From Halpernia frigidisoli (GTDB lineage: Bacteria; Bacteroidota; Bacteroidia; Flavobacteriales; Weeksellaceae): a stretch of 64,000 nucleotides of DNA. The position numbers and the translations under genes were made by a program. The notes under the pieces are model-generated. The model searched no databases and was not told where the DNA came from. It saw only the letters and a program-made list of their open reading frames with translations. How positions within the stretch are numbered: the first letter of the stretch is position 1; the number at the start of each line of letters is the position of its first letter. Shown in pieces: positions 28,702 through 56,055 of the stretch. The stretch lies in contig NZ_FOQT01000005.1 of assembly GCF_900113805.1 (NCBI RefSeq), positions 186,001-250,000 on the forward strand, read 5' to 3'.

Positions 28702-28739
28702 TTTCTTATTATATTCTAATTTCTCTTTTAAGCGAATCT

Positions 28740-28820
28740 CTTGCAGCCCGACTTGAGTGGAACTCCTTTTTTTGCATTTGAAAAAAAGAGTGGGAACGGA
28801 AGGCGGAAATTGCTGCCCAA
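28740..28820 (+). repeat. Flavo-1-like structured repeat, copy 2
   Basis: Close relative of the copy at 6226: GCAGCCCGACTTGAGTGG left block, GGGAACGGAAGGCGG right block, and a helix ACTC-C-TTTTTTT / AAAAAAA-GAGT with a bulged C. Terminal GCAGC and GCTGC pair. Antisense to the operon, between uxaC and kduD. Confidence 0.58.
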
Positions 28821-41206: not shown

Positions 41207-41273
41207 GCTAATAAACAGATACAAATTATATTTCTATTATTAAATAACTTGCTTATTATAAAATATCTTTCGC

Positions 41274-41404
41274 AAAAGGGATAGAAGCGGCATCCTTTTT
41301 TTGTTGCGGGAAATGTTCTAATTTAAAAACTAAGCTTCGGCAAAAAAAGATATAGCGGACAGCCCGACCCGAGCGGCTGGAAAAGCGTCGGCGAGGGATT
41401 TGCC
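41274..41404 (+). ncRNA. Flavo-1-like RNA/DNA element, copy 3 (candidate)
   Basis: AGGGATAGAAGCGGCATCC, then a T run, a ~45-nt loop, and CAAAAAAAGATATAGCGG followed by ACAGCCCGACC. The helix ATC-C-TTTTTTTG / CAAAAAAA-GAT keeps the bulged C of the other copies. Resembles the Flavo-1 motif of Flavobacteria as I remember it; function unknown. Confidence 0.5.
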
Positions 41405-42870: not shown

Positions 42871-43905
42871 TTATCTTCTAAAACCGCCACCGCCGCTTGA
42901 TCTTGTCGCACCACCAGATTGGCCACCACCGCTGTTAAAACCACCGCCGCTTGAACCTGAACGAAAACCACCACTATTGGAATTATATCTTGGCTGATAA
43001 GAAGGTTCTGATCTCTGTGGCTGCTGATATTGCTGAGTTCTTCTTGGTTGGTATTGCTGTTGTTGTCTTGTCCCGTTTTGGGTTGTTTCACCGTTTCTGT
43101 ATCTTATGCCAGAATTTTGGTTGTGGTTTGAAAGGGAATTATTTCTCGTGCGGGAAGGATCCTGAGTAGAATATCTTGGATTTCTAAACGCGCTTTCTAC
43201 ATTGCCTCTTCCATTGTTATTAAATCTTGCATTGGATTGACGATTATTAAGTCCGCCACCATTTTCACCACTTCTTCTGTAATTATAAAAGTTTCCGTAA
43301 CCGTTACCATAACCATTGTAATAATTTCCATAGCCGTTATAATAATTTCCAAAACCTCCATAATAGTTGCCAAAACCTCCATAATAGTTACCAAAGCCAC
43401 CATAATAACCGCCGAAACCACCATAATTGCCTCCGAAGCCACCACCATAATAATTTCCAAAATAGCCAAAAGGACTGTAACCAAAGGAGTAATATGGATT
43501 AAAACCGTAATAAGGACCATATCCGTATCCAAAATAATTACCAAATCCATATCCAAAATTTGAGTAAATATTTACATTTGTTTCAGTACCTGCGAAGCTG
43601 CCCCAATCAGAATCAGTGTTGTTGCTCCAGGCGTCGTATCTGTTATCACGCAAATTTTGATTTTCAGTACTTTTTTGGATAATCGACTGATCTTGATAAT
43701 TATAATAATCGCCCACTTGATTTTGGTCATTAGACACATATCCTTCTGGAAGTGTATCTGTGTTTGGATTATAATAAACGCCATCTGTTTCACTATAACC
43801 GCCGGTTTGCATTACGCAGGAAGTCATCATCGCAATTACCGACAATGATAAAAGACTTTTCAAAGCCAGCCTGAAAGTCTTATTTATTTGTATATTTTTT
43901 CTCAT
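42871..43905 (-). CDS. Gly/Tyr/Asn-rich repeat lipoprotein
   Basis: A 344-residue low-complexity protein. N-terminus MRKNIQINKTFRLALKSLLSLSVIAMMTSCVMQ with lipobox MTSC. The middle (about 115-210) is a run of aromatic-glycine repeats such as GGFGNYY and NGYGNYY; the C-terminal third is Gln/Arg/Ser-rich and ends in a Gly-rich GGGGFRR. No enzyme motif. Orthologues next to proS are known in Chryseobacterium as hypothetical proteins. A structural or adhesive surface role is possible but unproven. It may share a transcript with the FadL-like gene. Confidence 0.75.
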   Translation of the reverse strand: MRKNIQINKTFRLALKSLLSLSVIAMMTSCVMQTGGYSETDGVYYNPNTDTLPEGYVSNDQNQVGDYYNYQDQSIIQKSTENQNLRDNRYDAWSNNTDSDWGSFAGTETNVNIYSNFGYGFGNYFGYGYGPYYGFNPYYSFGYSPFGYFGNYYGGGFGGNYGGFGGYYGGFGNYYGGFGNYYGGFGNYYNGYGNYYNGYGNGYGNFYNYRRSGENGGGLNNRQSNARFNNNGRGNVESAFRNPRYSTQDPSRTRNNSLSNHNQNSGIRYRNGETTQNGTRQQQQYQPRRTQQYQQPQRSEPSYQPRYNSNSGGFRSGSSGGGFNSGGGQSGGATRSSGGGGFRR

Positions 43906-54608: not shown

Positions 54609-54683
54609 TTCTTAGCCCCGATTGAAACGGTATCCTTTTTCTTTTGAAAAAAAAGAAAAAGATATAGTGGAAAGCGGGAACTC
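54609..54683 (+). ncRNA. Flavo-1-like RNA/DNA element, copy 4 (candidate)
   Basis: The neatest copy: TAGCCCCGATTGAAACGG, then helix TATC-C-TTTTTCTTTT / AAAAGAAAAA-GATA closed by GAAA, then GTGGAAAGCGGGAACTC. Bulged C as in the other copies; outer CCCG pairs with CGGG. In the 279-nt gap between pafA and mdh, plus strand, opposite to both genes' direction. Confidence 0.55.
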
Positions 54684-54774
54684 TTTTGAAACAAAAACCA
54701 AAATCTTCTTGCTTCTAAAAAAAATTATCCCGCCGAAAAACGACAGGACAATTTATATTTATTTGATTGATTTC

Positions 54775-55701
54775 TTAAAATCCTAAATCACCATTGACCT
54801 CACGCACGGCTTTTGCAGCGGTTGCGAAACTTTCTTTTTCAGAATCAGTAAGGGAAATATCAACAATTTTCTCAATTCCATTTTTCCCAATGATACACGG
54901 AACGCCCATGCAAATGTCGCTTTCGCCATATTCGCCATCAAGCATTACGGAACATGGAATCATTTTTTTCTGGTCGCAAACGATGGACTGCACCAAAACC
55001 GAAACCGCTGCGCCCGGCGCATACCAAGCAGAAGTTCCTAATAATTTTGTTAAAGTAGCACCGCCAACTTTCGTTGCTTCGGCTAAGTTATTTTGAGTTG
55101 ATTCATCTAAAAATTCTGAAATAGAAACACCATTTCTTGTTGCTTTTGATAATAATGGCAACATTCCTGTATCACTGTGAGCCGCGATCACCATTCCATC
55201 TACGTCAGAAATTGGGCAATCTAATGCTTCCGCCAAACGGTATTTAAAACGGGCTGAATCTAATGCGCCACCCATTCCGATAATGCGTTCTTTTGGCAAA
55301 CCTGAAGTTTTATGAACCAAATAAGCCATCGTATCCATCGGATTAGAAACCACGATAATGATCACATCCGGTGAATGTTTTACTAAATTTTGAGTTACTT
55401 CTTTTACAATTCCGGCGTTGATGCCGATCAATTCTTCGCGCGTCATTCCCGGTTTACGTGGAATTCCAGAAGTTATAACAGCTACTTTTGAACCGGCTGT
55501 TTTAGAATAATCGCCAGTTGTGCCAGTAATTTTGGTATCGAAACCATTTAGGGATGCGGTTTGCATTAAATCCATTGCTTTTCCTTCTGCAAAGCCTTCT
55601 TTTATGTCAACAAGAACAACTTCAGAATTGAAATTTTTCATTGCGATGTATTCTGCACAACTTGCACCTACTGCTCCTGCGCCAACTACGGTAACTTTCA
55701 T
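54775..55701 (-). CDS. mdh: malate dehydrogenase
   Basis: Interconverts malate and oxaloacetate with NAD(H). A 308-residue LDH-like MDH: VTVVGAGAVGASCAEY nucleotide loop (about 3-18), acidic VDIKEG (Asp about 32, NAD specificity), IPRKPGMTREEL substrate Arg loop (about 80), SNPMDT, and catalytic His in IAAHSDTGML (about 172-181). Full length. The start at 55701 is overlapped by a small upstream ORF, and the leader is an array of 50-bp repeats. Confidence 0.94.
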   Translation of the reverse strand: MKVTVVGAGAVGASCAEYIAMKNFNSEVVLVDIKEGFAEGKAMDLMQTASLNGFDTKITGTTGDYSKTAGSKVAVITSGIPRKPGMTREELIGINAGIVKEVTQNLVKHSPDVIIIVVSNPMDTMAYLVHKTSGLPKERIIGMGGALDSARFKYRLAEALDCPISDVDGMVIAAHSDTGMLPLLSKATRNGVSISEFLDESTQNNLAEATKVGGATLTKLLGTSAWYAPGAAVSVLVQSIVCDQKKMIPCSVMLDGEYGESDICMGVPCIIGKNGIEKIVDISLTDSEKESFATAAKAVREVNGDLGF

Positions 55702-55751
55702 ATTAATTTATTTATTGTTTTTAATGGAAATATGGAAACTTGCGTTTTCAT
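55698..55751 (-). CDS. upstream small ORF (17 codons) in mdh leader, candidate
   Basis: Encodes MKTQVSIFPLKTINKLI. Its TGA overlaps the mdh ATG as ATGA, the arrangement seen in translational coupling. A similar ORF (55849-55902, MKTQVSIFPLKTLEKII) overlaps the next unit's ATG in the same way. The two middle units are broken: MKT-stop at 55790-55801 and a 14-codon version at 55808-55852. Translation is not proven. Confidence 0.3.
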   Translation of the reverse strand: MKTQVSIFPLKTINKLI

Positions 55752-55902
55752 ATTAATTTATTTATTGTTTTTAATGGAAATATGGAAACTTACGTTTTCA
55801 TATTAATTTATTTATTGTTTTTTAATGGAAATATGGAAACCTTTGTTTTCATATTATTTTTTCTAATGTTTTTAATGGAAATATAGAAACTTGCGTTTTC
55901 AT
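55702..55902 (-). repeat. tandem array of four ~50-bp units in the mdh leader
   Basis: Four units with starts at 55751, 55801, 55852 and 55902 (periods 50, 50, 51, 50 from the mdh ATG). Each starts ATGAAAAC and carries GTTTCCATATTTCCATTAAA followed by AAT-rich DNA. The mdh start codon sits exactly one period from the nearest unit. A -7 box (55923-55916) lies just upstream, so the array would be the mRNA leader. Confidence 0.9.
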
Positions 55903-55915
55903 ATTATAGATTTCT

Positions 55916-55923
55916 CAAATTTA
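55916..55923 (-). promoter_or_regulatory. -7 box for mdh
   Basis: Minus strand TAAATTTG matches TAnnTTTG and lies 14 nt upstream of the first repeat ATG. Transcription from here would put the whole 50-bp repeat array in the mdh leader. Confidence 0.5.
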
Positions 55924-56055
55924 CAAAATATTGAAGTTTTGCGCAATTTTGTATTTATTAAAGTTTTATTAAATATTTACCAAAGAATAAATAAAATCTA
56001 TGGTTCTTATCATTATTTGCTAACCTAAATCAAGAAGAATACTAAAATTGTAGAC

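Follow-up and report, generated by a model that had tools for sequence, protein, structure and literature searches.

Translational attenuators and riboswitch expression platforms, such as the ermC leader, rely on mutually exclusive leader hairpins that decide access to the initiation region, and in start-codon-sequestering RNA thermometers short AT-rich stems close over the AUG. The Bacteroidota initiate without Shine-Dalgarno pairing, and message-level control of initiation is poorly known in these bacteria. In F. johnsoniae, start-proximal structure and upstream adenines tune initiation, likewise without Shine-Dalgarno pairing (PMC6847099). Among dispersed repeats, BrickBuilt of Porphyromonas gingivalis is a minisatellite inside a MITE; it is intergenic, lies 49-591 nt from coding sequences, is promoter-like and has a 23-nt unit (PMC4596501).

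Here we analyse the leader of the malate dehydrogenase gene (mdh) in a 64-kb stretch of Halpernia frigidisoli DNA, which we call the window. The reading that we prefer, and to which we give a probability of roughly 0.6, is that of a bistable leader composed of four tandem copies of a lineage-specific element, which resides at ATGAAA starts and masks either a decoy or the true start. The features concerned are as follows.

54775-55701, minus strand: mdh, malate dehydrogenase, 308 aa, beginning ATGAAAGTTACC (ORF list; Pfam Ldh_1_N 2.9e-44, Ldh_1_C 7.1e-21).
55916-55946, minus strand: predicted Bacteroidota-type promoter, with TTG at 55946-55944, a 20-nt gap and TAAATTTG at 55923-55916 (sequence match).
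55853-55902, minus strand: unit 1, 50 bp, hairpin and linker; 17-codon uORF MKTQVSIFPLKTLEKII whose ATGA overlaps the start of unit 2 (covariance model 61.9 bits).
55802-55852, minus strand: unit 2, 51 bp, with a one-base insertion in the linker; 14-codon uORF (68.6 bits).
55752-55801, minus strand: unit 3, 50 bp; its uORF ends after 3 codons, within the GTAA loop (74.2 bits).
55702-55751, minus strand: unit 4, 50 bp; 17-codon uORF MKTQVSIFPLKTINKLI whose ATGA overlaps the mdh start (75.8 bits).
55729-55754, minus strand: stem A of unit 4, AATATG-A-AAAC GCAA GTTT-C-CATATT, 10 bp with an A.C mismatch and a GNRA loop, burying the decoy ATG (fold and cross-species covariation).
55779-55804, 55830-55855 and 55880-55905, minus strand: the equivalents of stem A in units 3, 2 and 1 (fold).
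55696-55737, minus strand: stem B of unit 4, TTCCATATT (55737-55729) with AATATGAAA (55704-55696, the mdh start), excluding stem A (compensatory pairing across genes; forced fold).
55702-55728, minus strand: conserved A-rich linker TCCATTAAAAACAATAAATAAATTAAT, consensus nACCaTTAAAAACAATAAATA, the probable initiation region (alignments A1 and A2; long-element consensus).

The Bacteroidota promoter consensus is TTG-N17-23-TAnnTTTG, and transcription from the predicted mdh promoter presumably starts near 55910. Downstream of the promoter box, as a sequence-only reading of this DNA had already claimed, four repeats of about 50 bp run in step with the mdh ATG: ATGAAA occurs on the minus strand at 55902, 55852, 55801, 55751 and 55701, that is at -201, -151, -100, -50 and 0 from the mdh start. 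The same reading had correctly described 17-codon ORFs in two of the units (1 and 4), each ending in an ATGA that overlaps the next start, the last being that of mdh, and had the other two as broken, unit 2 by a one-base insertion (14 codons) and unit 3 by a stop after 3 codons. Between units 3 and 4, 49 of 50 positions are identical; for the most divergent pair of units the figure is 42 of 50, with one gap. Tandem Repeats Finder reports 4.2 copies of period 50 with 91% matches and a score of 350, while the runner-up in the 64-kb window scores 115, so that the array is not a product of chance. The runner-up is a 21/42-bp tandem repeat at 43304-43444. Both Tandem Repeats Finder and an ungapped repeat search thus describe a tandem minisatellite, i.e. 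head-to-tail copies of a unit within 10-100 bp, and the four-unit array occurs only once in its own genome. Calling it a minisatellite of mdh is correct as far as the tandem repeat goes; the mdh-specific framing is too narrow, as the unit is one member of a family of leaders found at scattered loci, and the covariance model of the mdh element also matches many other genes.

By sequence comparison, each mdh repeat unit is a copy of a small conserved RNA leader element and not merely a piece of minisatellite. The element consists of a hairpin (stem A, ATGAAAnC-GNAA-GnTTcCAT) and an A-rich linker, ACCaTTAAAAACAATAAATA, that ends at the start codon. Folding of the mdh array yields the same hairpin in all four units, AATATG-A-AAAC-loop-GTTT-C-CATATT, in which the ATG forms the 5' arm; the loop is GCAA or GTAA in three of the four. 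Mdh leaders from about 110 relatives carry this hairpin too, in many species with altered letters (AACC/GGTT, AACT/AGTT, AGCG/CGTT, AATC/GATT), and a linker close to nACCATTAAAAACAATAAATA runs up to the start. Across 33 copies of stem A, 83.7% of the cells are paired against 72.8+-1.3 in shuffled alignments, double-change cells number 38 against 14.6+-2.6, and the covariation score is 0.317 against 0.136+-0.016, values reached by 0 of 500 shuffles. Here and for the second stem below, copies that share an ancestor enter the counts as if they were independent, and the significance figures overstate that independence. Pairing falls to 46% or less when the register is slid. The whole mdh leader fold is not more stable than its shuffles (z -0.49), and the case therefore rests on covariation; the short AT-rich stems of the element are marginal at 37 C. 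A spacing of 22-24 nt in most copies is conserved as well, together with the linker sequence and the start-codon position. As a search pattern, the linker alone was enriched in the sister species (genome G001, 16 matches against 3 in the control) but only weakly in genome G000 (5 against 3). Without the hairpin the element is therefore not defined, and the idea of a generic A-rich leader motif was rejected.

A covariance model of the mdh element (R1) finds it in at least 170 of 321 genomes of the family and in 12 of 33 genera, at mdh first and then at other genes, and these counts are lower bounds, with about 16 candidates scored per genome in the family-wide searches. The family is, as we infer, Weeksellaceae in the usual sense; the mdh relatives belong to Frigoriflavimonas, Kaistella, Chryseobacterium, Epilithonimonas, Cloacibacterium and Riemerella. 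In a 296-genome sample of the order, matches lie within the family and none outside it. Besides mdh, the element precedes exbD, 3-hydroxyacyl-CoA dehydrogenase, rpmJ, rpiB, pheT, acetyl-CoA acetyltransferase, a PfkB-type kinase, a TolC-like protein, etfB, ychF and many lipoproteins (all named from their N-termini and not by family search), and since these genes share no evident pathway, they indicate no signal. Three more convincing copies are present in the genome of the window itself, ahead of ychF, an RND transporter and a bL31-type ribosomal protein gene. In many copies the loop is 40-50 nt long and closed by ATCGC/GCGAT. Its consensus, ATGAAATCGCCATGATTT..AAACAC..ATGAAGAT..GCGATTCCATATGACCTTTAAAAACAATAAATATCTACATATGAAA with a GCGATT end, is common to 43 genes that are distinct by N-terminus, which argues for descent from one ancestor, and such a spread of one ancestral sequence over unrelated loci is what is seen in MITEs and other mobile repeats. 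The distribution is patchy, and the element is absent from mdh of the sister species.

That mdh (L032, genome G001) has a long leader with a weak, remnant-like TGAAAA...TTTTCA stem. In front of mdh in Chryseobacterium (L084, L087, L098, L101 and others), a long inverted repeat, ATTCCTGAAArATTGCyCAATTTTTCAGGAAT, spans the -33 TTG; it shows compensatory differences (CCCGAAA/TTTCGGG) and looks like a promoter-overlapping operator.

Searches against Rfam found no model for the mdh leader or for any of ten representative loci, and within the window Rfam recognises only Flavo-1 RNAs and tRNAs; elsewhere the search gave one sub-threshold chance match. Flavo-1 (RF01705) resembles the element in being a structured RNA of Flavobacteriia, with one copy about 1 kb from the mdh leader, but neither it nor any other Rfam family matches the element loci tried. 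The three Flavo-1 copies are on the plus strand at 54610-54685, 41267-41373 and 28738-28814, the first shortly past the 3' end of mdh, which runs on the other strand. The element appears to be previously undescribed, no description having been found in the open-access literature searched.

The link to start codons is tight. A pattern made of the 3' arm and the early linker, stopping before the start codon, matched 88 times, in 40 of 60 Chryseobacterium genomes, and its reversed control 0 times. Of 30 matches read, 28 sit 30-37 nt upstream of a long ORF that starts with ATGAA(A/T), one is an inner array unit and one has lost its start. Among 93 parsed copies the gene starts with ATGAAA in 91 and with ATGAAT in 2; for comparison, ATGAAA opens 13 of the 47 long ORFs of the window. 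ATGAAA stands at both ends of the element, and element-free mdh orthologues exist. At mdh in Chryseobacterium, the stretch leading to the native start of element-free species aligns with that leading to the 5' ATGAAA of the element (e.g. L074 and L075, aataataaaaagtaatattATGaaa against aataataaaaaagtaaatattATGaaa), so the element duplicates the start and leaves the old one at its 5' edge and the new one at its 3' edge. A duplicated translation start, as proposed from the sequence alone, is thereby borne out. Comparison at the sequence level establishes the element as such, its dispersal through the family, its place at the start codon, the start duplication and the covariation of stem A and of a second stem described below.

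Some copies lie inside apparent operons, for instance that of exbD, which directly follows the stop codon of the preceding gene, and this points to a role in RNA and not to a promoter element. It also bears on the idea of a DNA operator, in which a protein would bind a palindromic site repeated after the promoter. The mdh units do form imperfect palindromes and lie shortly after the -7 box; many sites, however, are inside operons or far from promoters and are fixed relative to the start codon, and the letters of the arms differ between genes while their complementarity is kept, as is typical of RNA. We regard a DNA operator as highly improbable.

Translation of the uORFs, coupled through ATGA to mdh and with unit number tuning expression, was a possibility raised by the sequence-only reading. 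The overlap is seen in 2 of the 4 window units, 67 of 75 5' arms contain ATG, and unit number differs among species. As a conserved feature, however, the coupling did not survive comparison: among 68 elements with an upstream ATG, GTG or TTG start, only 4 have a uORF that reaches and overlaps the gene ATG, most uORFs end after 3-28 codons in varying frames, and 2 of the 4 window units are broken. Neither peptide nor frame is conserved among the elements compared, and a conserved uORF or peptide was rejected as a candidate, base pairing being conserved instead. The ATG of the 5' arm is already accounted for by its pairing with CAT, it is dispensable for stem A (AGG or CTG replaces it in several mdh copies), and the upstream AUGs are predicted to be buried in stem A. 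Coupled uORF translation is thus an improbable explanation.

Stem A is one of two stems. The triplet that follows CAT in the 3' arm pairs with the triplet preceding the gene's own ATG (stem B, TTnCATnnn with nnnATGAAA), for example CATCTG with CAGATG (exbD, pheT and hydroxyacyl-CoA dehydrogenase), CATGTG with CACATG, CATAAG with CTTATG, CATAAC with GTTATG and CATTTT with AAAATG. In 30 genes with one copy each, leaving out the loci that had been found with a fixed CATATG pattern, the free triplet forms Watson-Crick pairs at 82 of 90 positions against 53.4+-3.1 after permutation (0 of 20,000). Where the decoy and the true start differ, the TTnCATnnn segment, hereafter the anti-start, is complementary to the true start alone in 34 cases and to the decoy alone in 3. 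The register test gives z = 9.9 at offset 0 and -1.6 to 1.3 at other offsets. In alignment A2, in which linkers were cut to a common length, double-change cells number 20 against 4.4+-1.7 and covariation is 0.202 against 0.039 (0 of 500). Orthologues of ychF co-vary in stem B, with AAC/GTT in the genome of the window and TTG/CAA in another genus. The search model R1 encodes stem A and not stem B, and hence cannot have created the complementarity to the start.

One position of stem B stays unpaired. Across 62 deduplicated copies, C, G or A stands opposite +4A of ATGAAA, but in no case T (0 of 33 paired in a second count), so the mismatch is maintained, and this argues against simple palindrome repair. 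The observation weighs on a neutral history, in which slippage generates the repeats and quasipalindrome template switching generates the complementary arms without selection, since template switching would repair the mismatch; the conserved spacing, linker and start-codon position speak against it as well. Such a history could still account for copy number itself, and the arrays keep to the ATGAAA register, as recombination between direct repeats predicts. For the element as a whole, neutral evolution seems no better a candidate than uORF coupling.

Stem A (ATGAAAyCG with CGrTTnCAT) and stem B share the same TTnCAT bases and are therefore mutually exclusive. Two exclusive stems with covariation behind each are the configuration of a bistable attenuator. 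In our preferred reading of a bistable leader, the old start would stay as a decoy at the 5' edge, a new copy of the start would stand at the 3' edge, and the anti-start between them would pair either with the decoy (stem A) or with the true start (stem B), never with both. Whatever occupies or melts stem A, be it a decoy-bound ribosome, a protein or a change in temperature, would shift the exposure of the true start, and the element would thereby set, and may switch, access to it. Computed probabilities of A and B sum to about 1 in most copies. Stem A dominates in most of them and stem B in some (exbD, pheT and one hydroxyacyl-CoA dehydrogenase). For the mdh leader the fold predicts stem A as the default, and a forced stem B at mdh lies 2.7 kcal/mol above the minimum free energy. 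The predicted unpaired probability is 0.01-0.06 for the decoy AUGs of units 2-4, 0.27-0.35 for that of unit 1 and 0.50-0.55 for the mdh AUG; the decoys would thus be hidden and the mdh AUG comparatively open, and stem B, which encloses the gene's AUG according to sequence and folding prediction, would close it. We infer that the element switches translation initiation in these bacteria, which lack Shine-Dalgarno recognition, and that the ribosome is likely to land on its A-rich linker.

Compared with ermC-type attenuators, the element likewise has exclusive leader hairpins and an upstream start codon in the first of them. It differs in that it sequesters the start codon and its upstream triplet and not a Shine-Dalgarno site, that its decoy duplicates the start, that there is neither a conserved leader peptide nor a ligand-binding core, and that it serves dozens of unrelated genes. 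RNA thermometers resemble it in their short AT-rich stems, which in the element are predicted to close over the AUG, but they have no counterpart to its alternative stem with a decoy start. With MITEs, REPs and BrickBuilt it shares the character of a short non-coding dispersed repeat with inverted repeats, some of these having tandem arrays and BrickBuilt being from a Bacteroidota genome. Unlike BrickBuilt, it abuts ATGAAA starts, supplies the start codon and can form either of two competing stems, and no linkage to a transposase was found at the Y1 loci searched.

The last comparison leads to the main rival of the bistable leader, namely a selfish mobile element, MITE-like or resembling a single-stranded DNA transposon, that survives best at ATGAAA starts. 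ATGAAA would be its target and right boundary, and the stems would serve excision and integration. Insertion after ATGAAA regenerates the start, so that insertions at start codons would be harmless and survive. Several observations fit: copies at unrelated genes share a loop that is otherwise unconstrained, the ATGAAA boundaries resemble direct repeats, mdh offers occupied and empty sites, one internal segment that pairs with both boundaries recalls the guide pairing of IS200/IS605, and Y1 transposases occur in all 12 genomes checked. On the other hand, survivorship alone should leave more copies at intergenic ATGAAA sites away from starts than the 28 of 30 at gene starts, all in one orientation, would suggest, and mdh copies persist in many species with compensatory changes of stem A made in place. 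At 20 Y1 transposase loci, the class searched for a mobilising enzyme, there are hairpins of their own and no convincing copy of the element (best model match E = 1.2), nor was one exact pattern of it found in viral contigs. An origin from REP/Y1 transposases was rejected on the absence of the element beside these 20 genes. A purely selfish element is accordingly the strongest of the alternatives, though still unlikely. The Y1 transposase genes of the family (L352-L369) are flanked by palindromes of their own, e.g. GGGCTTTAGCCCG, typical of REP/RAYT pairs.

Beyond mdh, the bistable leader suggests a broader proposal, which we put forward tentatively and hold slightly less probable than its negation: a dispersed, probably mobile-derived class of RNA switches for non-Shine-Dalgarno bacteria, which would colonise ATGAAA starts, turn the old start into a decoy and let the anti-start pick the exposed copy, tandem amplification giving multi-decoy leaders as at mdh. 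If true, a family-wide element that duplicates and hides starts would be a handle on initiation control in Bacteroidota, the more so as it stands at central genes (mdh, etfB, exbD, rpmJ, pheT, rpiB and ychF) and nature provides orthologues with 0 to 4 units.

A comparison of unit number, which the sequence-only reading had called for among strains, reveals this range among species at mdh (one genome each), with none in the sister species, a single unit in most carriers and 2, 3 or 4 in others. Two units are present at L066 and L124, three at L038 and in genome G276, and four in genome G278. Arrays also precede a PfkB-type kinase (L211/L213/L346) and a response regulator (L171, three 87-bp units). 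All are in register with ATGAAA, as expected from recombination between ATGAAA repeats, and they probably arise by recombination or slippage between these direct repeats. Since extra units bring decoys and anti-starts in equal number, each can stay self-contained. The fourfold repetition itself may be neutral, and there is no sign of selection on unit number.

In the sister species, the response-regulator array (L171, G001:C3:55700-57000) comprises long-loop copies in step with the ATGAAA of that gene. In the same genome, two tandem units (L172, G001:C2:1026500-1027600) precede a gene that starts with GTGAAA, and the boundary between the units is GTGAAA as well, so that here the copied start is of the type that the gene itself uses. 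The mdh leader of Frigoriflavimonas (L061/L195), in which a run of N interrupts the assembled array, holds at least three units.
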